A DNA stretch of 36,685 nt from a virus, in IMG/VR virus record IMGVR_UViG_3300037502_000642, positions 1 through 36,685 of that record; one strand, given 5' to 3'. Shown here piece after piece: positions 3,062 to 19,768 of this stretch (within the stretch, counting starts at the first letter, position 1; every line of letters begins with the position of its first letter). The translations under genes and the position numbers were made by a program. The notes under the pieces were generated by a model, which had not been told where the DNA came from, made no database searches, and saw only the letters and a list, made by a program, of their open reading frames with translations.

Positions 3062-6000
3062 ATGCTAAGAGATGTATTTTATTTCGGTAAAAAACCAAAC
3101 GCACACCCTAGAGAAAGACTAGCAAAGTCATTAGATGATGCTAGAATGCAAGCCTCAACCAAAGACTTTTGGATCATTAATGAATTTTGTGATTACAAAA
3201 ACTTTGATTGGGACTTTGACTTTGAATTTTTACCTGATGAAGATGTATGGGCTGAAGATCATAACAATGTATGGCCCAGTGTTTATCAAAAAGATAGTGG
3301 TACATGGTTGTGCGCTAAACAAAAAAGTGATATCACAATATACAGAAATGATGTACAACCACTAAAGCGTAAAAACGAAAAGAATGACAACTGGGTATTG
3401 CATGATTTAATTGATGAAACTAAATTTGACTTTGGCTGGCATCCTGATCCTACTGACCCTCCTTATATCTATAAGTGGGGTAGTAAATTTTATCCAGCGC
3501 AATTTCAAACTGTATTAGAGTATCGTGTACCGGGTGCAATAGATGTTAAGTACATGGATACAATTGTTGAGTTGCTACCTCAATATGAACGTTGGGTAGA
3601 AAATCATAAGATAGATAGAAACAAATTTGATTTGTCATGGAGACCTGATCCAATGGATCCTCCATACATTTATGTTTGGGGTAATCCTCATATAGACCCT
3701 ACATTAGAATCTACATTAGAATACCATACACCGGGCGCTACTGATAAAAAGTATATGCCTGAAAAACTTGTTGTGTTGCCACAATGGGAACGTTGGGTAG
3801 AACATACCCCGGTCGATAAGTTGCGTAGTGAAAAAAATGGCTTTGACTTTAGTTGGAGACCAGATCCGCGTGAGCCTGCATACAATTATGTATGGGGCAA
3901 TAAATTTGAAGATGCTGAAATAGTACCTACGCTAGAGTATCGCATGGCAGATGCAACACAAGTAAAATATATGACAGAACGTGTTGATGTATTACCACAA
4001 TGGGAACGTTGGAGTGTAATACAAGATATTGAAGAATCAACATTTGACTTTAGTTGGAGACCGGATCCACGTGAACCTTTACTGAATTATATTTTTGGTA
4101 ATGAATTATATGACGGTACAATCATGCCTACCATTGAGTATAGAATGGAAGGTGCAACAGAAACAAAATACATTGATAATTGGACAAAACCTAAGTTTAA
4201 ATCTAACAAGTCTCTTTTTGAATTCTTAGAAGATAGTGATGGGTTGGATTATAGTTGGAGACCTAATCCAACCAGTCCACCATATATCTATGCTTGGGGC
4301 AATCAGTGGAATAAGCCTGAAGATAAAGTAAGTGTGCAGTATGTTGTAGAAGGTGCAACAGAATACAAGTACATGAGTGAACGTGCTATACGTAAACACT
4401 GCATGGACAACTGGATCATACCTAGTGACGTTGATGTTACAGGATTTGACTTCAGTTGGGAACCTAGCCCAGCAGACCCTGCATATATCTATGAGTTTGG
4501 TACACAATGGCAAAAGACAGGTGGCCCAAAATATGTTGTGCCCGGTGCAACACAAGTCAAATACGTTGATATCTTTAAAGTAAAGAAGTTACCTAGTAGG
4601 GCTAACTGGACTATACCTAAGAATGTAGACGTTACAAACTTTGACTTCAGTTGGCATCCAGATGATACAAGTCCACCATACATATATCACTTTGCTACTC
4701 AATGGGCAACTAGCGGTGGACCAATCTATACAGTCCCAGGTGCAACAGAAGTTAAGTATATTGATGATCAGGTTGCTAAGATGTTACCTGATAAAACAAA
4801 TTGGGAGTATGATAGTAATCTAATTGACGATACATCATTTGATTTTAGTTGGCATCCATATGTAGAAGATCAACCATACATCTATGTGTTTGGCACACAA
4901 TGGCAAAAGACAGGTGGTCCGCGTTATATAACTCCAGGTTGTCACAAAAATAGTCCTATCAAATATATTGACACACGTATTTTAAAAGCAAAGCGTAAGC
5001 CATGCATGGACAATTGGGTCGTATTAGATAACTTGAACGTTATTGATTTTGATTATAGTTGGCATCCAGATGATACTGAAGAAGCGTATATCTATCAGTT
5101 TGGTAATAATCAGTATCCTGCTGAGATAATGCCTACTGTAGAATACACAGTGCAGGGTGCAAAACAATTTAAGTATGTGCATGATATCGTTGCTACGTTA
5201 GGCCCTGATAAAACTAATTGGGAGATACCAAAGAACATTGATGATACTGGATTTGATTATAGTTGGAAGCCTAATCCTAAAGACCCCTCATACATATATG
5301 AGTTTGGTACTCAATGGCAAAAGACAGGCGGCCCTCGATATGTAGCATATAAAGCAACTGAAGTCAAATACGTTGATACACAAAAAGTAAAACGTTTAGA
5401 GTCTAAAGACAATTGGACTATTCCAAGCAATTGTGACATTACAGGCTTTGACTTCAGTTGGCATCCAGATGATACAAGTCCAGCATACATTTACTATTTT
5501 CCAACTCAGTGGGCACTAAGCGGCGGACCAGTATATACAGTACCCGGTGCTACTGAAGTTAAGTATGTTGAAGATCAAACTGCTATTGCTACTGTTGATA
5601 AAACTAACTGGATAGTACCAGATGATGTTGATGCAGATAGTTTTGATTTCAGTTGGCATCCCTATGTAGATGATCAACCATATATCTATCAATTTGGTAC
5701 ACAGTGGCAAAAAACAGGTGGACCAAGATATGTCACACCAGGATGCCATAAGAATAGTCCTGTCAAGTATATTGACACACGTATTTTAAAAGCAAAGAAA
5801 AAATCTTCAACTAACAATTGGGAGATACCTGACAACTTAGATGTTAAGGACTTTGACTTCAGTTGGCACCCTGATGATACCGAAGAGCCATTCATTTATC
5901 AGTTTGGTACACAGTGGCAAAAAACAGGTGGACCAAGATATGTAGTTCCTGGTGCAAAGGCTTTTAAGTATATTGACTTACAAAAAGCAAAACGTATGCC

Positions 6001-9000
6001 GTCTATGGAAAACTGGGATGTACCTTCTTACGTTGACATAGATGGATTCGACTTTAGTTGGCACCCTGATGATACAGGGGAACCCTATAATTATATGTTT
6101 CCCACCGAGTGGCAACAACAGGGTGGACCTGTATATAAGATGCAAGGTGCTGATAGTGAAGCATACATGGCACATCCTGTTGCAAAAACTAAAGCACAAA
6201 CAGACAACTGGATAATACCTAATGATATTGATGTGACAGAGTTTGCACTAAATTGGCATCCGCATCCTAAAGACCCTCCAATGGTATATCAGTTTGGTAC
6301 TCAATGGCAAAAAACAGGTGGACCTAAATATATAAGTAAACATGCAGACTCTAGCAGTCCAATCAAATACATTGATGTTTCTAAAGCCAAAAAGTTACCT
6401 AACAAAAAGAATTGGAAAATTCTTCACAAGTATGATGTTGTAGATTTTGATTATAGTTGGCACCCAGATGATACTGACGAGCCATTTACATATCAGTTTG
6501 GTAACAAGTATTTTTCTGCCGAACAGATGCCAACATTAGAGTATCGTGTTAAAAAATCAAATAAAGTAAAGTATATACATGAACCTGTAGCAACATTATC
6601 AGAAGATAGAACTAACTGGGAAATTCCTAAGGATGTAGACGTTACAGATTTTGATTTTAGTTGGAGACCTAGTCCGTTGGATCCTCCTTATATCTATCAA
6701 TTTGGAACACAACATCAAAAGACAGGTGGTCCTAGGTACGTAGTAAAAAATGCTACTAACATAAAGTATGTAGATACTTTAAAAGCACGTAAACTTCCTA
6801 CTAAACAAAACTGGGATATACCTCCTAATATTGATATTAAGGATTTTGATTTTAGTTGGCATCCAGATGATACTGATCCTCCCTACATATATCAATATGG
6901 TACACAATGGGCATTGACTGGTGGCCCAAGATACATAGTTCCCGGTGCTACAGAAACAAAATACGTAGAAGGAACAATTGCTAGAGTAGGTTCAAATATG
7001 CAAAATTGGGAAGTACCCAATGATATTGCAAAAGAAGAATTTGACTTTAGTTGGCACCCATATGCAGAAGATGAACCGTTTATCTATCAATTTGGAACAC
7101 AGCATCAAAAGACCGGAGGTCCAAGATACATTGTGCCCGGTGCTACTCAAGTAAAATATATTGACAGACGTATCTTAAAGGCACGAAAGTTACCTAAGAA
7201 GGCTAACTGGAGAATTTCTAACGGAGTTACTACTTCTAAATTTGACTTTAGTTGGCATCCAGATGATACGTCACCTCCTTATATCTATCAATTTGGTACT
7301 ATAGAGGATCCTATTGATGGTCCTAAATATCTGACTCCAAACAACAACGGGGAAACAGTTTATCTAAACAGAATAGAATTATTAGAGGAAGTAAAAACTG
7401 TAGATTATCCTAAGTATAATATAGTCACAACATTGGAAGATTTAATTACAGAGCATTCAACTGAAATATTTTGGGCTACACGTACTGATATTGATTATTC
7501 TAATTTTGATTTTGATTGGCGTCCAAACATAGAGCAAGCACAGTATGTACATGTGTTTGGCCAAAGTGAAAGCATTAAATCACAAACATATTTTGTTAAC
7601 GCTGTATTATGGAATAAAGGATTTAAAGAATTTAATTTCGTTGAAAAGCAAGATCAGAAAAACGTAGATGAACTTGATATGTTTTTTGTTGATAAAGGAA
7701 ATCCTGAAGCACAAAAACGATTTGATACACTTAAGGCTAGATATCCTAAGTTACAAAAAACACGTTATCTAAACAGTTGGGTTGATACTGTTAACCGTTG
7801 CTGTAATCGTTCTAGTAGCGCATTGTTATGGGTATTGAATAGTGAATTAGATTATACTAATTTCAATTTTGATTATTATCCTAATCCATGGCAGACTAAA
7901 ATGGTTCATGTATTTGGTACTCAATGGAGCCACTGGGGTACGACATTTATGGTTAACCGAGAGTCTTTCCCCGCTGATACAAAATATATTAAAATCATAG
8001 AACACTTGAGTAATTTAAATTTTGTAAAAGAAAATAAGGCATACGCAACAAAATGTGTACATGATATTGTACTAATTGATCATGGTAATAAAGATATTTC
8101 AGAAACAATAGACTTTTTAAAATCTAAATCTAATGGAGACATAACAATCTTCAAGTATGTCACTAGTTATCTCAACACGTTAAGAACAGTTGTAAGTAAA
8201 TTACCTAATAAGAAAGAACATTACGTATGGATTTGTAGCAGTGTATGTGATTACAAGACTTTTGATTTTAGTTACATTGTTGATCCTTTCTCCAGAGACA
8301 ATTTACACGTATTTCCTAGCGACAAACAAAAATTTGGAGATACATTCTTTGTAGACGTAAACAAGTTGCGTGAATTAATAACTAGTGTTGAACTACTTGA
8401 AGATTACAAAGTTAATTATAATCAGGCACAAAAAGCCATTAGACTACCTGCTCCTACTGTAGTTGTAAACGAAGATACGCATGTAAACGCAATTCATAAC
8501 TTGCAAGATTTTCCATATACTATCTTAGTGACAGAAGATAATAAGAATATAGACAGTGTTGATGTTGAACCTATGTCACTGTGGGATTCTTCTACTAAAA
8601 ACATTATTGTAACTAGTGTTGGCGCCACAAGAATCATAGTACCAAATGAAGTTAAAGATTATGTAAAGACACAGTTGTATGATTACCCATACATCAAAAA
8701 ATCATCGAAACTAGCAATGTCTACTCCGATGGACATTGTATTTTTAAGTAATGGCGAAACTGGTGCGGAAGAAAACTACGAGCATTTGTTAAAAATAACC
8801 AAAGGTTTAAAGAATAGGGTTGTTAGAGTTGAAGGTGTAAAGGGGCGTGTAGCCGCATATAGGGCCGCAGTAGAAGCAAGTAACACCCCATGGGCATTTA
8901 CAGTATTTGCTAAGTTGAAAGTTAGTGCTAAGTTTGATTTTAACTGGCAACCGGATAGATTACAAATGCCTAAGCATTATGTATTCCAAGCAAAGAACCC

Positions 9001-9400
9001 CGTTAATGGTTTGATATATGGGCATCAGGCTATGATTGCCTACAATAAAAAATTAACATTAAATAATGAAGGATTAGGATTGGACTTTACTATGGATGAT
9101 CCACATGAAGTAGTTGAACTTATGTCCGGTATAGCAAATTACAATACAGATGAGTTTAGTACATGGAGAACAGCATTTAGAGAAGTCATTAAATTGCAAT
9201 GGGATCGTACAGAAGTTAGTGATAAACGTTTAGAAGTTTGGCTAACTAAGGCAGAAGGGGAGTTTGCGCAGTATAGCCTAGATGGGGCAAGAGATGCTGT
9301 AGCATATTATTCTGAAGTAGGTGGGGAGTTTAACAAATTAAAACTCAGTTATGAATGGGATTGGCTACAACGTTATTTTGAAAATCGATATAAAAAATGA
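3062..9400 (+). CDS. Giant 2112-residue tandem-repeat protein with a glycosyltransferase-like C-terminal domain
   Basis: Residues 1-109 contain one diverged module. Residues 110-1437 hold 20 tandem modules of about 65 residues with the pattern NW....+D...FDFSWHPDDT.PPYIYQFGTQWQKTGGPRY (split by position, + is hydrophobic) and a YID/YVD near each end. Residues about 1470-1885 carry larger diverged units. Residues 1886-2112 form a distinct end domain (PMDIVFLSNGE, then TPWAFTVFAKL, then FDFNWQPDRLQMPKHYVF). The end domain and two preceding units (from about 1537 and 1667) share a strand-loop-helix half followed by the same W/FDF/P/HVF half that makes up the repeats, so the repeats look like half-domains. 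The layout is reminiscent of a GT-A glycosyltransferase, but I see no firm DXD motif. There is no signal peptide or membrane segment. It starts 3 bases after the carbamoyltransferase stop and ends in an ATGA overlap with the next gene. Function is unknown; late expression and neighbours suggest glycan or virion-surface work. Confidence 0.8.
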   Translation: MLRDVFYFGKKPNAHPRERLAKSLDDARMQASTKDFWIINEFCDYKNFDWDFDFEFLPDEDVWAEDHNNVWPSVYQKDSGTWLCAKQKSDITIYRNDVQPLKRKNEKNDNWVLHDLIDETKFDFGWHPDPTDPPYIYKWGSKFYPAQFQTVLEYRVPGAIDVKYMDTIVELLPQYERWVENHKIDRNKFDLSWRPDPMDPPYIYVWGNPHIDPTLESTLEYHTPGATDKKYMPEKLVVLPQWERWVEHTPVDKLRSEKNGFDFSWRPDPREPAYNYVWGNKFEDAEIVPTLEYRMADATQVKYMTERVDVLPQWERWSVIQDIEESTFDFSWRPDPREPLLNYIFGNELYDGTIMPTIEYRMEGATETKYIDNWTKPKFKSNKSLFEFLEDSDGLDYSWRPNPTSPPYIYAWGNQWNKPEDKVSVQYVVEGATEYKYMSERAIRKHCMDNWIIPSDVDVTGFDFSWEPSPADPAYIYEFGTQWQKTGGPKYVVPGATQVKYVDIFKVKKLPSRANWTIPKNVDVTNFDFSWHPDDTSPPYIYHFATQWATSGGPIYTVPGATEVKYIDDQVAKMLPDKTNWEYDSNLIDDTSFDFSWHPYVEDQPYIYVFGTQWQKTGGPRYITPGCHKNSPIKYIDTRILKAKRKPCMDNWVVLDNLNVIDFDYSWHPDDTEEAYIYQFGNNQYPAEIMPTVEYTVQGAKQFKYVHDIVATLGPDKTNWEIPKNIDDTGFDYSWKPNPKDPSYIYEFGTQWQKTGGPRYVAYKATEVKYVDTQKVKRLESKDNWTIPSNCDITGFDFSWHPDDTSPAYIYYFPTQWALSGGPVYTVPGATEVKYVEDQTAIATVDKTNWIVPDDVDADSFDFSWHPYVDDQPYIYQFGTQWQKTGGPRYVTPGCHKNSPVKYIDTRILKAKKKSSTNNWEIPDNLDVKDFDFSWHPDDTEEPFIYQFGTQWQKTGGPRYVVPGAKAFKYIDLQKAKRMPSMENWDVPSYVDIDGFDFSWHPDDTGEPYNYMFPTEWQQQGGPVYKMQGADSEAYMAHPVAKTKAQTDNWIIPNDIDVTEFALNWHPHPKDPPMVYQFGTQWQKTGGPKYISKHADSSSPIKYIDVSKAKKLPNKKNWKILHKYDVVDFDYSWHPDDTDEPFTYQFGNKYFSAEQMPTLEYRVKKSNKVKYIHEPVATLSEDRTNWEIPKDVDVTDFDFSWRPSPLDPPYIYQFGTQHQKTGGPRYVVKNATNIKYVDTLKARKLPTKQNWDIPPNIDIKDFDFSWHPDDTDPPYIYQYGTQWALTGGPRYIVPGATETKYVEGTIARVGSNMQNWEVPNDIAKEEFDFSWHPYAEDEPFIYQFGTQHQKTGGPRYIVPGATQVKYIDRRILKARKLPKKANWRISNGVTTSKFDFSWHPDDTSPPYIYQFGTIEDPIDGPKYLTPNNNGETVYLNRIELLEEVKTVDYPKYNIVTTLEDLITEHSTEIFWATRTDIDYSNFDFDWRPNIEQAQYVHVFGQSESIKSQTYFVNAVLWNKGFKEFNFVEKQDQKNVDELDMFFVDKGNPEAQKRFDTLKARYPKLQKTRYLNSWVDTVNRCCNRSSSALLWVLNSELDYTNFNFDYYPNPWQTKMVHVFGTQWSHWGTTFMVNRESFPADTKYIKIIEHLSNLNFVKENKAYATKCVHDIVLIDHGNKDISETIDFLKSKSNGDITIFKYVTSYLNTLRTVVSKLPNKKEHYVWICSSVCDYKTFDFSYIVDPFSRDNLHVFPSDKQKFGDTFFVDVNKLRELITSVELLEDYKVNYNQAQKAIRLPAPTVVVNEDTHVNAIHNLQDFPYTILVTEDNKNIDSVDVEPMSLWDSSTKNIIVTSVGATRIIVPNEVKDYVKTQLYDYPYIKKSSKLAMSTPMDIVFLSNGETGAEENYEHLLKITKGLKNRVVRVEGVKGRVAAYRAAVEASNTPWAFTVFAKLKVSAKFDFNWQPDRLQMPKHYVFQAKNPVNGLIYGHQAMIAYNKKLTLNNEGLGLDFTMDDPHEVVELMSGIANYNTDEFSTWRTAFREVIKLQWDRTEVSDKRLEVWLTKAEGEFAQYSLDGARDAVAYYSEVGGEFNKLKLSYEWDWLQRYFENRYKK
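3389..7372 (+). repeat. Twenty tandem ~195-bp coding repeats with a four-unit higher order
   Basis: Module starts (the NW or RW positions) recur about every 65 codons. From residue 450 on, four module types alternate as A-B-C-D. A has a P.P.DP core and ends like VKKLPS. B has TQWA..GGP or a similar variant. C has HPY..D followed in two copies by an insert GCHKNSP and RILKAK. D has HPDDTEE or DDTDE and, in two copies, an AE.MPT.EY segment. Cassettes start at residues 450 (nt 4409), 719 (nt 5216) and 1185 (nt 6614); the third cassette is short. The five modules before residue 450 are of an older, more uniform type. Confidence 0.85.
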
Positions 9401-12862: not shown

Positions 12863-13237
12863 ATGAAAGCACTTGTTGCAGGTATCCTAGGTCTTTTTGC
12901 TCTTACTGCTAATGCAGGAGGTATCGATTGCCGTTCAGGAGTAGACCACAAACACCCCGCTTGTTTTGTAAGACCACATGTTGTACATGTACATCATGGG
13001 CATCGTCATCATCATTGGAATCATCACAGACACGCCCCTGTGATTGTACATCGTAGTCATAATGATTGGGTAGTACCACTAGTGGGTGGAGTAATTTTAG
13101 GTGCAGTTATTAATGAGGCAGCAGACCGTCGTAATGATAACCCTGCTCCTAATACGTCAGTAAACTGCACAGAATGGCGTGAAGTAATACAGAGTGATGG
13201 AACAATTGCCCGCGAACGTACCTGTTATCAAAAGTAA
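12863..13237 (+). CDS. Exported His-rich protein with a glycine-zipper segment
   Basis: The start is placed at ATG 12863, which has an excellent Shine-Dalgarno (AGGAGAAAATC) and gives a proper signal peptide (MKALVAGILGLFALTANA, cleavage near residue 18). The in-frame ATG at 12818 would bury the signal. The 124-residue product has two Cys soon after cleavage, a very His-rich stretch (about residues 34-63, HHGHRHHHWNHH in its middle) that could bind metal ions, a hydrophobic Gly-patterned segment VVPLVGGVILGAVINEA and a C-terminal domain with two more Cys. Location should be periplasm or envelope. Function is unknown; metal binding is inferred from composition only. It resembles host envelope proteins more than phage ones. 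Confidence 0.75.
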   Translation: MKALVAGILGLFALTANAGGIDCRSGVDHKHPACFVRPHVVHVHHGHRHHHWNHHRHAPVIVHRSHNDWVVPLVGGVILGAVINEAADRRNDNPAPNTSVNCTEWREVIQSDGTIARERTCYQK

Positions 13238-14318
13238 GCACCGCTACGATAATGCATTTATAACTGTAGATGCATGGGACTCTTTCGATAAAAAGGAAGA
13301 GTTTCATCAAAAAATTTTAAAATCATCTACAGAACAGATTGTATATTTAGGCCAAAATGAGTGGGACTACTACAGTGGTGCCGCTCTTCCTAAATTTAAT
13401 GCGGCGTTAGAGCATTTAAAAAATCAAGATAGAATATTTCATATTGTTACAAGTGGATTTCCGTATCACAAAGAACCAATTGATCCTAATTTAAAAGTCT
13501 ATCATTGGGTAGATTGGTTTATGAAAAAAACATTTACTAGGTGTATTAATACTTCTAAAGATGTAGACAGATCAAGATTCGCAGAGTTTCGCTATTATTC
13601 TCAATCGTTAGAAAACACAACATTCGATCATTATCTAACATCATTAAATCATAGGTCTCATGCACACAGATGCCATATGATGGATTTAATTGCAAAAAAT
13701 AATCTTATCGAGGGTAATGCAATTAGTTGGCACAACTTAGTGGGTAACGGTAGTATGGCAGATATGTATGATTGGGAATACTTTACACCAAGAGTGCTAT
13801 CATTAAGTGATAATTTCAATGACGAATGGAATACTCCGCCAACACAATACTTTAAATCTTTTATGCAGGTAGTTAGTGAGAGTTCTCAAAATGTTAAAAT
13901 CTTTACGGAAAAGACGGCTATGGCATTAATTTCGCATAAGCCATTTTTGATAGCAGGACCTATGCATATACATCAAACTTTAAAAGATTTAAATTTTGAA
14001 TTATACGATGACATATTTGATTACTCATTTGACAATGAACCAAATCAAGGAAAAAGGTATCAGATGATTATGGATAATTTTGTAAGAATCCAACAGGAAA
14101 ACACTCTAGGTGATTTAGTAAAACTGCAAGAAAAAATTAAATCAAAGATTGTCTATAATTTTGAAAATTTAAAAAAGAATGTGTTTGATTTTTCTACAGT
14201 CCCTCCCATTGTTAGAAAAATATTTGAGGTTTATAAAATTACAGGTGAGGATGTGGGGCATTGGTCAAATGGAGCATTAGCATGTTTAGATGACCATCGC
14301 AGAGAATTTTATAAATAA
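13197..14318 (+). CDS. Glycosyltransferase-like protein (GT10/exostosin-like end domain)
   Basis: This 373-residue protein overlaps the 3' end of the His-rich gene. A GTG directly precedes the chosen ATG and neither has a clear Shine-Dalgarno, so the start is uncertain. The recognisable part is the segment SESSQNVKIFTEKT followed by HKPFLIAGPMHIHQTLKDL and FDYSFDNE. This (F.TEK....KPF...G....L...+F) pattern is shared by fucosyltransferase-like and exostosin-like proteins where it binds the sugar nucleotide. The N-terminal half has YLGQNEWDYYSG and HWVDWF without an assigned role. The last codons contain a late promoter box (14310-14317) for the tmRNA unit. The family call is tentative. Confidence 0.6.
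   Translation: MEQLPANVPVIKSKHRYDNAFITVDAWDSFDKKEEFHQKILKSSTEQIVYLGQNEWDYYSGAALPKFNAALEHLKNQDRIFHIVTSGFPYHKEPIDPNLKVYHWVDWFMKKTFTRCINTSKDVDRSRFAEFRYYSQSLENTTFDHYLTSLNHRSHAHRCHMMDLIAKNNLIEGNAISWHNLVGNGSMADMYDWEYFTPRVLSLSDNFNDEWNTPPTQYFKSFMQVVSESSQNVKIFTEKTAMALISHKPFLIAGPMHIHQTLKDLNFELYDDIFDYSFDNEPNQGKRYQMIMDNFVRIQQENTLGDLVKLQEKIKSKIVYNFENLKKNVFDFSTVPPIVRKIFEVYKITGEDVGHWSNGALACLDDHRREFYK
14310..14317 (+). promoter_or_regulatory. T4-type late promoter box for the tmRNA unit
   Basis: An exact TATAAATA lies within the last codons and stop of the preceding gene. T4 spacing puts the start near 14323, immediately before TGCTGT (14325-14330), the proposed first paired strand of the tmRNA acceptor piece. 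Confidence 0.6.
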
Positions 14319-14322
14319 GTTT

Positions 14323-14386
14323 ATTGCTGTATGAAGCAAAGAGAAAAGTGTTCTGGACGGCGGTTCGAATCCGCCCAGGTCCACCA
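14323..14386 (+). ncRNA. tmRNA acceptor piece (3' half, encoded upstream)
   Basis: About 64 bases from the predicted late start to the encoded CCA. It holds the whole T-arm and the 3' acceptor strand. There is no anticodon or D-arm upstream, so it is not a tRNA gene. The 5' boundary is inferred from the promoter. Confidence 0.8.
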
Positions 14387-14454
14387 TATACGCACTATTG
14401 CATAAAACCGACTCAATCATCCGAGTGCAGGCAAACCATTAGTGCTTATATGAC

Positions 14455-14613
14455 GGGCCTGTACTTGGTTTCGACAGGGCAAAGAGTAACAGAGTGGACA
14501 GCACGGTAGGCGATGACCGTAAATCAAGCAAAACAAGTAGACGCAAACGATTCTACATACGCACTTGCCGCTTGAGGCATGCTGAGGTAAGACATACCGA
14601 TAAACAGAAATTC
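14455..14613 (+). ncRNA. tmRNA coding piece (5' half with tag frame)
   Basis: It begins with the 5' acceptor strand and degenerate D-loop region, carries the tag frame, and ends between the tag stop and the terminator stem. After the tag only about 38 bases remain, so pseudoknots PK2-PK4 of one-piece tmRNAs cannot all be present. This matches the reduced form of known two-piece tmRNAs. Confidence 0.8.
14543..14575 (+). other. tmRNA tag reading frame ANDSTYALAA
   Basis: GCA (resume codon) AAC GAT TCT ACA TAC GCA CTT GCC GCT TGA. It is preceded by TAGAC, the counterpart of the TAGTC just before the E. coli resume codon. The ALAA end is the signal read by ClpXP and related proteases. The AND.(.)(Y/F)ALAA form is the beta/gammaproteobacterial type. 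Confidence 0.93.
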
Positions 14614-14640
14614 AGATAGGGACTTTGGTCCCTATCTTTT
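14614..14640 (+). terminator. Intrinsic terminator of the tmRNA unit
   Basis: AGATAGGGAC (14614-14623) and GTCCCTATCT (14628-14637) form a perfect 10-bp stem with a TTTG loop, followed by T residues. With the late box at 14310 it closes an independent transcript of about 315 bases. Confidence 0.95.
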
Positions 14641-14647
14641 TATCCAC

Positions 14648-14655
14648 GATAAATA
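14648..14655 (+). promoter_or_regulatory. Late box GATAAATA, five bases before the ATG
   Basis: A close variant of the T4 late box. The last A is followed by five bases and then the ATG at 14661. It lies right after the tmRNA terminator, so a new start is needed here. The expected start point falls on the start codon. Confidence 0.6.
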
Positions 14656-14660
14656 TCAGT

Positions 14661-16307
14661 ATGAAAATAAAAACTCTTGAATCGTTTGACTTATCCGACG
14701 CTGTAAAGTTCCATTACGAACTTAATCCTAAGTTGTGGAAAAATAATAGATTAGATCCTGCAGTAAAAAAACAGTTATTAATTATTGCTGAAGATTTTCT
14801 TATTGAGTTAGGAATTAAAGGTTTAGACGTAGACGATATTACTATATCAGGATCAAATGCCGCATATACATACACTCCACATAGTGATTTAGATTTGCAT
14901 ATCCTTGTTGATATGAGCAAACTTCCAAACGATGAAGTTTATAAAGAGTTATTTCAGGCTAAAAAGACATTATACAACGATAGTCATGATATTAAGATAC
15001 GAGGCATACCCATAGAATTGTATGTACAGGATAGCAAACAACCTGTAATTAGTTTGGGTGAGTATAGTTTATTACAAAATAAATGGTTGAAGATTCCTAC
15101 TAAACGTAGGGCTAATTTTGATCAACGTGCTAGTAAAGTCAAATACGACAAACTAAATGATTTGGTTACAAGAGCATTACGTTTTAAAAAGTCAGATCAA
15201 GTTAACAAAGCACTTAAGATTATTAAACAGTATAGACAAGCAGGCCTTGATAAAGGTGGTGAGTTTAGTCCTGAAAATCTAGCATTTAAGGCCATACGTA
15301 AACGTGGCTTTATTCAAGACCTTTATACATTACGTGATGAATTACATAGTAAAGAACTAAGTATTGAAAACATGTATGCCCAAGAGGATTATCATCCTAA
15401 CGCAAAGCCAAGAGGTCCAGAGTTCCCACCAACAATGCCATCTGGCACAGTCAAAGTAGATGTAAGTGATGTATATGACTGGTATAAACTAGGTCAACAT
15501 ATCAGCGACTTAGAAGGACTTGGTAAGCATGATTTTGGTAAAGGTCCACCTAGCACTATATTGAGTTTCGGTGATGAAGATACTGAACACAAATATATTG
15601 ATAACTTGATGAAAACAGGATTGACCACAACAGATATTGACCCTAAAGGACATGAACCTAAGAAGGGTCAGAAGGTAGATCCTACATATAATGTTAATGA
15701 GGTCTTTGACCAACCCTACAAACTCAAATGGGAAAAAGGTGACCATGGTGATGTTGATGCTTATACACAATTGCCAGATGGTAACTATCTAAGTATCATG
15801 TTTAACAAAGAATATAATCAGGACAACGAAGAAGCATGGAGCGTAGAGTTCTATCGAAATAACAGTCAAGAGGTTACTGGTGAAGGTGATGCTCAACGAG
15901 TATTTGCTACTGTGTTAGGTGCTATTCAAACATTCATTAAAAAATATAAGCCAAATAGAATCATATTCTCAGCAAGTAAAGAAGTTGAACCTGGACAAAA
16001 CGCACAAAGCCGTGCTAATCTATATGATAGATTAGTTCAGCGTTATGCTAAGGCAATGGGATACAAAGCATTTAGGGCTGATGCAGGTAATAAAGTTCAC
16101 TATGAATTGAGTAAAATAAAGAAAAGCGTATCAGAGGCTTCAGGATATATTCCTAGTGAAAAAGAAAAAAATGACCCAAGATTCAAAACGGCCTTGACAG
16201 TAGATGTGAAACCTGATAGTATTAAGAAAAATGCAAAAGCATTTGGATCAAACATACAACGTTCAGGCATACCACCCACACTACCCACAAATGGCAAGAG
16301 AGTTTAA
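14661..16307 (+). CDS. Polymerase-beta-type nucleotidyltransferase domain protein
   Basis: The start is set at ATG 14661; upstream in-frame codons lie in the terminator. Residues about 40-125 carry the nucleotidyltransferase signature: ISGSNAAYTY (GS at 64-65), SDLDLHILVD (D76 and D78 as metal ligands) and a third acidic residue in GIPIELYVQD (E119). Residues 130-240 are basic and helical. Residues about 245-350 include a Pro-rich linker and a DVYDWYKLG segment. Residues about 355-495 form a second domain ending in NRIIFSASKEVEPGQNA and RLVQRYAKAMGYKAFR. The first domain may add nucleotides to a protein, RNA or small molecule; the substrate is unknown. The second is not recognised. Late promoter control suggests a morphogenesis-time or virion role. 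Confidence 0.7.
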   Translation: MKIKTLESFDLSDAVKFHYELNPKLWKNNRLDPAVKKQLLIIAEDFLIELGIKGLDVDDITISGSNAAYTYTPHSDLDLHILVDMSKLPNDEVYKELFQAKKTLYNDSHDIKIRGIPIELYVQDSKQPVISLGEYSLLQNKWLKIPTKRRANFDQRASKVKYDKLNDLVTRALRFKKSDQVNKALKIIKQYRQAGLDKGGEFSPENLAFKAIRKRGFIQDLYTLRDELHSKELSIENMYAQEDYHPNAKPRGPEFPPTMPSGTVKVDVSDVYDWYKLGQHISDLEGLGKHDFGKGPPSTILSFGDEDTEHKYIDNLMKTGLTTTDIDPKGHEPKKGQKVDPTYNVNEVFDQPYKLKWEKGDHGDVDAYTQLPDGNYLSIMFNKEYNQDNEEAWSVEFYRNNSQEVTGEGDAQRVFATVLGAIQTFIKKYKPNRIIFSASKEVEPGQNAQSRANLYDRLVQRYAKAMGYKAFRADAGNKVHYELSKIKKSVSEASGYIPSEKEKNDPRFKTALTVDVKPDSIKKNAKAFGSNIQRSGIPPTLPTNGKRV

Positions 16308-17023: not shown

Positions 17024-18121
17024 GTGAGCAAAGTTTCAGACAATCTAACTATTACTAGCGTTCAAGCCCGCAAGGCAGTATTGAAGGCATTCAAGTCTAA
17101 GCGTCCCATTTTCTTGTGGGGGCCTCCCGGTATCGGCAAGTCTGAGGTAGTAAGCGAAATCACTGATGAACTTGGTGGCTATATGATTGACTTGCGTATG
17201 GCACAAATGGAGCCGACTGATTTGCGCGGTATCCCTTTCTATAACAAAGATACAGGCAAGATGGATTGGGCTCCCCCAGTCGAACTTCCCGATGCTGAAT
17301 TGGCATCACAATATCCCATCATTGTTCTTTTCCTTGATGAGATGAATTCAGCACCTCCTGCTGTACAGGCTGCAGGTTATCAGTTGGTGCTCAACCGTCG
17401 TGTTGGTAAGTATGTATTGCCCGATAACGTTGTGATTGTTGCGGCAGGTAACCGTGATAGTGACAAGGGTGTTACTTATCGCATGCCCATGCCCCTTGCT
17501 AATCGTTTCGTTCACCTTGAAATGCGAGCCGATTTTACTTCATGGCAGAACTGGGCTGTGAACAAAGGTATTCACAAGGACGTTGTTGGTTACTTGAGTT
17601 TTGCAAAGCAGGACCTGTACGATTTTGATAATAAGTCGGCATCACGTGCTTTTGCTACTCCACGTAGTTGGGTCTTTGTGAGCGATTTGCTCAATGATGA
17701 AGATTCTGATACCGATACATTGTACAATCTTGTATCAGGTGCAGTTGGTGAGGGTCTTGCTGTTAAGTTTATGGCACACCGCAAAGTTGCAGGTCGTATG
17801 CCCGAACCCAGCGATATCTTGTCAGGCAAGGTTAAGGACCTTCAAGTCAAAGAAATTAGTGCTATGTACTCATTGACTATTTCTATGTGCTACGAATTGA
17901 AGGATGCACTTGACAACAAGAAGGTCAACAACAAAGAATTCCATGCAATGGCTGATAACTTTTTCAGTTACATCATGGCAAACTTTGAGACTGAATTGGT
18001 TGTTATGGGTGCTAAGATTGCACTTAAGACTTACAAGTTGCCGATCGAACCCAGTCAGTTGAAGAACTTTGATGACTTCCACAAGAAGTACGGCAAGTAC
18101 ATTGTTGAGGCAGGTAACTAA
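17024..18121 (+). CDS. MoxR-type AAA+ ATPase
   Basis: A GTG start at 17024 sits behind TTAGGAG. The 365-residue protein shows Walker A GPPGIGKS (residues 33-40), a DLRMAQMEPTDLRG segment typical of the MoxR/AAA_5 group, Walker B VLFLDEMN (101-108), sensor 1 VIVAAGNRD (137-145) and an arginine-finger region PLANRFVHLEM. MoxR ATPases act as hexameric chaperones, usually with a VWA-domain partner that binds the client through a metal site. Exactly such a partner lies two genes downstream. The client is unknown. Its strong early promoter and the terminator after the gene imply high early expression. Confidence 0.9.
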   Translation: MSKVSDNLTITSVQARKAVLKAFKSKRPIFLWGPPGIGKSEVVSEITDELGGYMIDLRMAQMEPTDLRGIPFYNKDTGKMDWAPPVELPDAELASQYPIIVLFLDEMNSAPPAVQAAGYQLVLNRRVGKYVLPDNVVIVAAGNRDSDKGVTYRMPMPLANRFVHLEMRADFTSWQNWAVNKGIHKDVVGYLSFAKQDLYDFDNKSASRAFATPRSWVFVSDLLNDEDSDTDTLYNLVSGAVGEGLAVKFMAHRKVAGRMPEPSDILSGKVKDLQVKEISAMYSLTISMCYELKDALDNKKVNNKEFHAMADNFFSYIMANFETELVVMGAKIALKTYKLPIEPSQLKNFDDFHKKYGKYIVEAGN

Positions 18122-18130
18122 GTTGCTCCT

Positions 18131-18158
18131 GGGGCGTGGGAAACCCGCCCCCTTTTTT
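18131..18158 (+). terminator. Intrinsic terminator after the MoxR gene
   Basis: GGGGCG (18131-18136) pairs with CGCCCC (18146-18151), extended by GG/CC above a bulged T, with a short A-rich loop and six T after the stem. The T run merges directly into the late box at 18158. Confidence 0.88.
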
Positions 18159-18165
18159 ATAAATA
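18158..18165 (+). promoter_or_regulatory. Late box TATAAATA, five bases before the ATG
   Basis: An exact late box that begins on the last T of the terminator run and is separated from ATG 18171 by five bases, predicting a leaderless late mRNA. Confidence 0.65.
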
Positions 18166-18170
18166 CGGAT

Positions 18171-18404
18171 ATGATTAACAAACCAAAAGTTGTTTTTGCA
18201 CCGGGCTGTTTCGATAGTTTTGAGGGCACTCAAGAGGAATTGGATGCTATGATTGCTGAAATCAACCAATTGGTTGAGAGCGGTGAGTTTTTTGATCAGG
18301 CAATCGCAATTGACGAACTTTCCGATGAGGAAAAGGAAGACTTCCTTGATGGACTTGAAATCAATATCCGTGATATTCAGGCTCCAAATCGCACACTAAA
18401 TTGA
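18171..18404 (+). CDS. Small acidic unknown protein between the MoxR and VWA genes
   Basis: The frame is open further upstream, but ATG 18171 directly follows a terminator and a late promoter and gives a sensible 77-residue product. The protein is strongly acidic, with helices LDAMIAEINQLVESGEFF and DELSDEEKEDFLDGLE, and has no Cys pair, signal or membrane segment. It has a different promoter class from the two genes that flank it, so it may not belong functionally to the ATPase pair. The family is not recognised. Confidence 0.7.
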   Translation: MINKPKVVFAPGCFDSFEGTQEELDAMIAEINQLVESGEFFDQAIAIDELSDEEKEDFLDGLEINIRDIQAPNRTLN

Positions 18405-18407
18405 GGC

Positions 18408-18436
18408 TTGACATTAATTCCAAACAGTGCTATAAT
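18408..18436 (+). promoter_or_regulatory. Consensus sigma-70 promoter for the VWA gene
   Basis: TTGACA (18408-18413), 17-base spacer, TATAAT (18431-18436), a perfect match. It overlaps the region just after the stop of the small acidic gene. Start expected near 18443; the leader has AAGGAG before ATG 18464. Confidence 0.92.
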
Positions 18437-18463
18437 GATGTTATTCAAGTGAAGGAGCCTGTA

Positions 18464-19768
18464 ATGCATATTCTCAAAATGTCTGATGTTCTTCCCGGGA
18501 CTAAGACTAAGAAAAAACGTAGTAAGAAATTCGAAAATCTGGTAGGTCCTACTGACCCCAAGGTAGATCATGCCGCACGTGAACGTTTGGTAACTGCACG
18601 TATCGGTCTACTATTGCGACATTCGTTTTTCGGCAATCTCGCTACCCGTTTGCAACTTGTTAATGCTGATGACTGGTGTAGCACTGCCGCAACTGACGGT
18701 CTCAAGTTCTATTACAATTCACGTTTCATTATGATGCTCAAGCCTAAAGAGGTTGAGTTTCTTGTAGGACATGAAGTATTGCACGTAGTCTATGATCACA
18801 TGGGCCGTCGAGGTGATCGTGATCCTCAAATTTGGAATATTGCTGATGACTATGCGGTTAATGCTGACTTGAAGCGCCACAAGGTAGGTGAGTTTATCAC
18901 TACAGTACCTTGCTTGTACGAATCAAAGTATGATGGCAAGCCTGCTGAAGAAATCTATGATGACCTCATGAAGAATGCTCAGAAGATTAGCATTGATGAC
19001 CTCATCGACCAAATGATTGATGATCATATGGATGGTGAAGGCGAGGGTGAGGGAGAAGAAGGAGACGGCAAAGACGGCAAAGGTAAGCGCCCTAAGATGA
19101 GTGACGAGGAGCGTGAGCGTGTACGTCAGGAAGTCAAACAGGCTATTCTCAATGCCGCACAATCAGCCGAAGCAGGTAGTCTGCCTAAAGGTGTTGAGCG
19201 ATTGATTAAGCAACACACTAACCCTGTGATGCCCTGGCGTGAATTGATTCAGACTAATTTGACTAGTGCTATTCGCACTGACTTTAGTTGGATGCGCCCT
19301 TCACGCCGTAGTTGGCACATGGATGCTATCATGCCCGGCATGACGCCCGGTGAAGAAATCGATGTTACTATTGCTATCGACATGTCAGGTAGTATTGGTA
19401 ACGATCAGGCTCAAGCATTCTTAGGTGAGATTGCAGGCATGATGAGTGCATTCGATGGATACAAGGTTCATGTATTCTGCTTTGATACTGATATCTATAA
19501 TCCTGCTAACTTCACTAGCGAGAATTTAGATACAATTGATAGTTACGAACCAGTCGGTGGCGGTGGTACTGACTTCGATGCTATCTTTGAATATCTCAAG
19601 CGTGAAGCAATTGAGCCTAAGCGATTGATTGTTTTCACTGATGGTTACCCTTGTGGTTCATGGGGTGACGCAAACTATTGTGATACTACTTGGATTATTC
19701 ATGGTGATCCCGATCCCAATCCCCCATTCGGCACTTTTGCAATCTATAATGATCATAAGCGGGGGTGA
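18464..19768 (+). CDS. VWA-domain protein with a metallopeptidase-like N-terminal domain (MoxR partner)
   Basis: The start is ATG 18464, which follows AAGGAG and a perfect promoter; the longer frame back to 18401 would include promoter DNA. The 434-residue protein has an HExxH zinc motif (HEVLH, residues 103-107) with NIADDYAVNADL downstream, as in the VWA-like metallopeptidase-fold family (DUF2201-like). It then has an acidic Gly/Glu-rich linker (about 188-205), a helical stretch, and a VWA domain with the MIDAS motif DMSGS (306-310) and GGGTD (366-370). Partners of this type deliver substrates to MoxR ATPases. Whether the HExxH site is catalytic cannot be told. The gene end overlaps the next start. 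Confidence 0.85.
   Translation: MHILKMSDVLPGTKTKKKRSKKFENLVGPTDPKVDHAARERLVTARIGLLLRHSFFGNLATRLQLVNADDWCSTAATDGLKFYYNSRFIMMLKPKEVEFLVGHEVLHVVYDHMGRRGDRDPQIWNIADDYAVNADLKRHKVGEFITTVPCLYESKYDGKPAEEIYDDLMKNAQKISIDDLIDQMIDDHMDGEGEGEGEEGDGKDGKGKRPKMSDEERERVRQEVKQAILNAAQSAEAGSLPKGVERLIKQHTNPVMPWRELIQTNLTSAIRTDFSWMRPSRRSWHMDAIMPGMTPGEEIDVTIAIDMSGSIGNDQAQAFLGEIAGMMSAFDGYKVHVFCFDTDIYNPANFTSENLDTIDSYEPVGGGGTDFDAIFEYLKREAIEPKRLIVFTDGYPCGSWGDANYCDTTWIIHGDPDPNPPFGTFAIYNDHKRG

Follow-up and report, generated by a model that had tools for sequence, protein, structure and literature searches.

The analysed window, 36,685 bases long, is a virus record. It encodes a T4-type terminase, which shares 49% identity with the terminase of Pseudomonas phage PA5oct, and a T4-type single-strand DNA-binding protein. 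A 2112-residue protein encoded at 3062-9400 contains many repeats of about 50-60 residues (FDFSWHPDDTSPPYIYQFGTQW...) and had no PHROG or Pfam match. At 17024-19768 a gene for a MoxR-like ATPase adjoins a DUF2201/VWA metallopeptidase-like gene. Positions 14323-14641 hold a complete two-piece (circularly permuted) tmRNA gene, betaproteobacterial in type, identified by covariance models and by reading of the sequence. The features of the region were as follows.

13236-14318, plus strand: upstream neighbour, unknown protein with no Pfam or PHROG match
14310-14317, plus strand: TATAAATA, predicted T4-type late promoter box, overlapping the TAA stop codon of the upstream gene
14323-14386, plus strand: tmRNA 3' piece (CCA piece) with P2 strand, T-arm, acceptor 3' strand and CCA (RF04321, RF01850, ARAGORN)
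14376-14382, plus strand: acceptor 3' strand CAGGUCC with U70 at 14380, followed by discriminator A (14383) and CCA (14384-14386), read from the sequence
14387-14454, plus strand: spacer of 68 nt, predicted to be removed in maturation, its ends pairing in the fold to lengthen the acceptor helix
14455-14461, plus strand: acceptor 5' strand GGGCCTG, pairing 7/7 with 14376-14382
14455-14641, plus strand: tmRNA 5' piece (mRNA piece), from G1 to the terminator (covariance models, ARAGORN, terminator)
14543-14575, plus strand: tag reading frame ANDSTYALAA-stop, from the resume codon GCA to TGA, with a hydrophobic end (sequence, ARAGORN)
14614-14641, plus strand: intrinsic terminator with a 10-bp stem (14614-14637) and a TTTTT/T run (terminator scan)
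14648-14655, plus strand: GATAAATA, separate late-type box for the downstream gene, whose ATG is at 14661
14661-16307, plus strand: downstream neighbour, conserved phage protein (phrog_36119)

A sequence-only reading of this DNA had called a permuted tmRNA here and had proposed Rfam covariance models as the check. Both models gave significant, full-length matches in the permuted layout. RF04321 matched with 129.2 bits over model positions 1-213 of 213 (gathering score 47), with the 3' half ahead of the 5' half. RF01850 (beta_tmRNA) matched 14273-14639 with 127.3 bits, above its curated cut-off (gathering score 84), and several phage relatives likewise score above that cut-off. ARAGORN called the same gene with the same tag. 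The window gene thus belongs to a known RNA class, of which it is an ordinary example. The 7-bp acceptor, the CCA ending at 14386, the 68-base spacer and the tag ANDSTYALAA named in the earlier reading were all found in the sequence, and the terminator that it described as perfect at 14614 has its 10-bp stem followed by TTTTT. Its size for the 5' half (160 bases) was too small, as the terminator end predicts about 187 nt (14455 to about 14641). The third acceptor pair is a G.U pair (G3·U70), the alanine identity pair. Two-piece processing and tmRNA activity are predicted from these features.

Conservation was assessed in a diverse set of 143 phage tmRNAs collected by sequence patterns. The acceptor stem was paired 7/7 in 141/143, but in only 31/143 when partners were swapped between sequences. 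G3·U70 was kept in 141/143. Tags differed among the phage tmRNAs, the majority ending in ALAA. Because of the intact acceptor stem, the retained G3·U70 and the ALAA tag ends, the comparison indicates that the phage tmRNA gene is under selection. The window tag has the ordinary ALAA degron ending, which lends no support to specialised tagging. Predicted tags of about 27-31 residues, partly common between loci (e.g., ANADTFDFSAMSFTGNTVSGKSKVALAA), were seen at L037, L038, L196, L214 and L240; they may be genuine long tags or come from a wrongly assigned frame.

Pairing of the spacer ends was found in 110 of the 143 phage tmRNAs compared to 19 of 715 shuffled spacers. The same helix was found in the five bacterial permuted tmRNAs measurable for it and is therefore part of the ordinary design. 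The fold-back spacer described in the sequence-only reading is thus present, but the hairpin was rejected as a phage-specific trait since host copies have it.

The P2/T-arm signature was common in viral contigs. The pattern GTATGAAG-N6-GAAA-N3-GTTCTGGAC was found in at least 120 viral stretches, compared to a single genome among 84,980 from bacteria and archaea. That single genome match (L419, 1-3004) is a contig binned with a Gammaproteobacteria MAG and carrying a tRNA array. It has two copies of the tmRNA 3' half/motif, one of them with no visible 5' half nearby, and is probably a misbinned phage contig. Host beta tmRNAs were represented by 13 copies from an order-level search; class- and phylum-level searches found few. 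Bacterial permuted tmRNAs with a readable P2 region had other P2 sequences, and the readable beta-type host spacers were about 30 bases long, whereas the phage copies have GTATGAAG...GAAA and spacers mostly of 50-120 nt.

Unannotated permuted tmRNAs were also seen in Xanthomonas phages Rb1 and X1 and Stenotrophomonas phages BUCTxx99 and QDWS359 (L621-L624), matching RF04321 with 76.6-108.7 bits. In QDWS359 a hypothetical protein is annotated across the tmRNA gene. The Xanthomonas and Stenotrophomonas hosts have a one-piece tmRNA. No late box was present directly upstream of the permuted tmRNA in the Xanthomonas and Stenotrophomonas phage isolates found.

In the window the box TATAAATA starts at -19 from the P2 motif GTATGAAG, and the predicted RNA start, at about 14323, is the first base of the tmRNA. 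No sigma70 promoter was detected upstream of the tmRNA in the promoter scan. No -35 was present in front of the box, the best candidate by eye matching 4/6 at 19-nt spacing; TATAAA also matches 5/6 of the sigma70 -10 box. The tmRNA is the sole product of its unit because the terminator is followed by the separate box GATAAATA at 14648. ATAAATA or a close variant lies at the same place before the downstream gene in most relatives displayed, and several relatives of this neighbour also have a permuted tmRNA just upstream.

Occurrences of the box elsewhere in the window were then compared to chance. TATAAATA was at chance level (6 found, 5.45 expected) and its bare presence was discarded as promoter evidence, so the weight rests on its position. 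With the first base relaxed (NATAAATA) the box was if anything rarer than chance (11 compared to 20 expected). Ten of these 11 are on the plus (coding) strand and the remaining one, a TATAAATA, is on the other strand. Six of the ten plus-strand boxes sit 10-35 nt upstream of gene starts (P 1.2e-6, with all A/T 7-mers as the comparison). The boxed genes include those for a spanin (25264), a baseplate-wedge-like protein (26347), a virion protein (29108) and the terminase (31516). This positional spread is that of a late promoter. ATAAATA boxes were seen exactly 13 bases before the ATG at three window genes (boxes 14648, 25251, and 31503), and many relatives of the downstream gene (L122-L177) have ATAAATA about 12-16 bases before the ATG. 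With such spacing late mRNAs would be leaderless or nearly so. A gene for a gp55-type sigma was absent from the window, which is a 36.7-kb fragment. Such a sigma was found in 10 of 27 related contigs, three of these being weak matches (E about 5e-4 to 7e-4), and gp55-type late sigma genes also occur in contigs with late-boxed tmRNAs (L205, L240, and L349).

To follow the box in other phages, IMG/VR was scanned with patterns lying inside the tmRNA only, the promoter having no role in selection. This gave 153 distinct phage tmRNAs (differing by at least 12% across 130 bases). NATAAATA starts at -20/-19 from the P2 motif in 17 of the 153, and 38 have TAAATA at -18/-17, where the background is about 0.6 for each position. 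The sigma70 -10 box TATAAT peaks in the same set at -19/-18 and TTGACA at -42. The late box replaces the sigma70 -10 box and leaves the predicted RNA start unchanged. A late-type box alone was present in 32/153 (about 21%), a sigma70 promoter alone in 46/153 (30%), both in 6/153 (4%) and neither in 69/153 (45%). A separate scan requiring TATAAATA found at least 28 further ARAGORN-confirmed tmRNAs directly behind it; some of these are near-identical copies and the rest have very different tags.

The nearest tmRNA relative (L332) lacks a late box, and a -35 precedes TATAAA in several related tmRNAs. In L125, L412 and L415, which have the tag VAANDNNVDLALAA, TTGAC is followed after about 17 bases by TATAAATA, a hybrid that both sigma70 and the late sigma could read. 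A tree of the tmRNA core was weakly resolved; on it the promoter state changed 30 times, compared to a mean of 34.9 for shuffled labels. Promoter type is on this account labile across phage tmRNAs, although the tree is no proof of how many switches took place. The late-promoter control proposed in the sequence-only reading fits the window, where the gene has its own promoter-terminator unit behind a box that acts as a putative late promoter in this phage and recurs elsewhere. It does not extend to a general rule, as the majority of phage tmRNAs of this type either carry a sigma70 promoter or show no clear one, late control being one mode among several. There are about even odds that the permuted tmRNAs form a virus-borne lineage, largely apart from bacterial copies, in which sigma70 and late boxes were swapped repeatedly in place with the RNA start constant, the phages thus timing ribosome rescue.

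The best explanation, at a probability of roughly 0.7, is that the window carries a working phage two-piece tmRNA in its own short unit under a T4-type late promoter. Gene structure, pairing, G3·U70, tag, terminator, and box position and recurrence are taken from the sequence; timing, processing and activity are what we infer. A phage late sigma of the gp55 type with host RNA polymerase would recognise TATAAATA and start the RNA at about 14323, and the transcript would stop at the terminator near 14641. The spacer hairpin would draw the CCA end and G14455 together, and RNase P and 3'-processing enzymes would excise the spacer to leave two base-paired pieces. Host AlaRS would charge the RNA via G3·U70. 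With host SmpB and EF-Tu, the RNA would then rescue ribosomes stalled on broken mRNAs late in infection, and the rescued peptides would receive the ANDSTYALAA tag and pass to host proteases. Late expression of the window tmRNA is accordingly a prediction from box position and recurrence.

Host sigma70 polymerase could drive the tmRNA gene early or throughout infection with TATAAA as the -10 box, as proposed for methylophage Melnitz, in which the tmRNA was assigned an early promoter and a suggested early role (PMC9004378). TTGAC-N16-20-TAYANT with its -10 at this position occurs in 30% of comparable phage tmRNAs, and hybrids with both promoter types exist. The window, however, has no -35, and its 8-bp box is the one found ahead of late genes in the same phage, so that this explanation is unlikely here. 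Still less probable is that the tmRNA lacks its own promoter and arises by read-through from the gene upstream, with a stop codon producing the box by chance. The overlap of the box with the TAA stop of that gene and the 45% of phage tmRNAs with no clear promoter are in keeping with read-through. Against it, 72 of 928 control gene ends have ATA after the TAA, compared to 8 of the 9 gene ends at -18/-17 beside tmRNAs, and the box has a sharp positional peak. The box as a chance product of TAA stop codons was rejected by this 928-gene-end control.

The remaining explanations concern the RNA itself. The RNA might be a decoy, binding SmpB or blocking the host tmRNA. Such a role has precedent in the suggestion made for mycobacteriophage DS6A and its tag-less tmRNA (PMC4131195, PMC11915505), but DS6A has no tag frame, while in the phage copies the tag frame, stop, G3·U70 and degron end are intact and conserved. 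A decoy role is very improbable on this evidence. Phages commonly integrate at host ssrA genes (a point discussed in PMC9004378), and the gene might be a passive remnant of a host ssrA acquired at an attachment site. This is scarcely credible, since the gene is complete, has a promoter and a terminator and lies in a T4-like phage, its acceptor stem covaries, and the P2 signature is nearly absent from bacterial genomes.

The tmRNAs of Bxz1-group phages and Bacillus phage G are of the standard one-piece form. Phage-encoded tmRNAs have been described in these mycobacteriophages and in Bacillus phage G, with DS6A having only the tRNA-like part (PMC4131195), and a tmRNA database lists 79 phage sequences (PMC11915505). 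Phage two-piece tmRNAs as such are already known: one was reported in Melnitz, and 53 of 133 phage tmRNA structures were two-piece (PMC9004378). Melnitz resembles the window phage as an aquatic phage with T4-like transcription genes and a permuted tmRNA. Its tmRNA is of the alphaproteobacterial type with a predicted early promoter and a glutamine riboswitch association, whereas that of the window is beta-type with a late-type box and its own terminator. Host tmRNAs of the RF01850 family share with the window gene the part order, acceptor/T-arm, AND...ALAA tag, terminal hairpin and fold-back spacer. Their consensus has a sigma70-like -10 box (TATAAT) where the window has the late box. The T4 late promoter is an 8-bp TATA box about one helical turn before the start and lacks sequence conservation at -35 (PMC2988020), and the window box is alike in length, distance and lack of a -35. 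It differs in driving a structured non-coding RNA and in the relaxed first base. No report of a late-promoter tmRNA was found in the open-access literature searched, which lacks most subscription papers. As far as could be found, neither the late promoter nor its recurrence nor its exact replacement of the -10 box has been described.

On why phages carry tmRNA, the one published proposal found took expression to be early. A late promoter in about one fifth of phage tmRNAs of this type (about one quarter including the sigma70 hybrids) points to ribosome rescue during late protein synthesis. The existence of two promoter classes allows a direct test of the timing hypothesis. A T4-type late regulon can include a structured RNA as a self-contained member, and the findings suggest that some phages turn on ribosome rescue late in infection.
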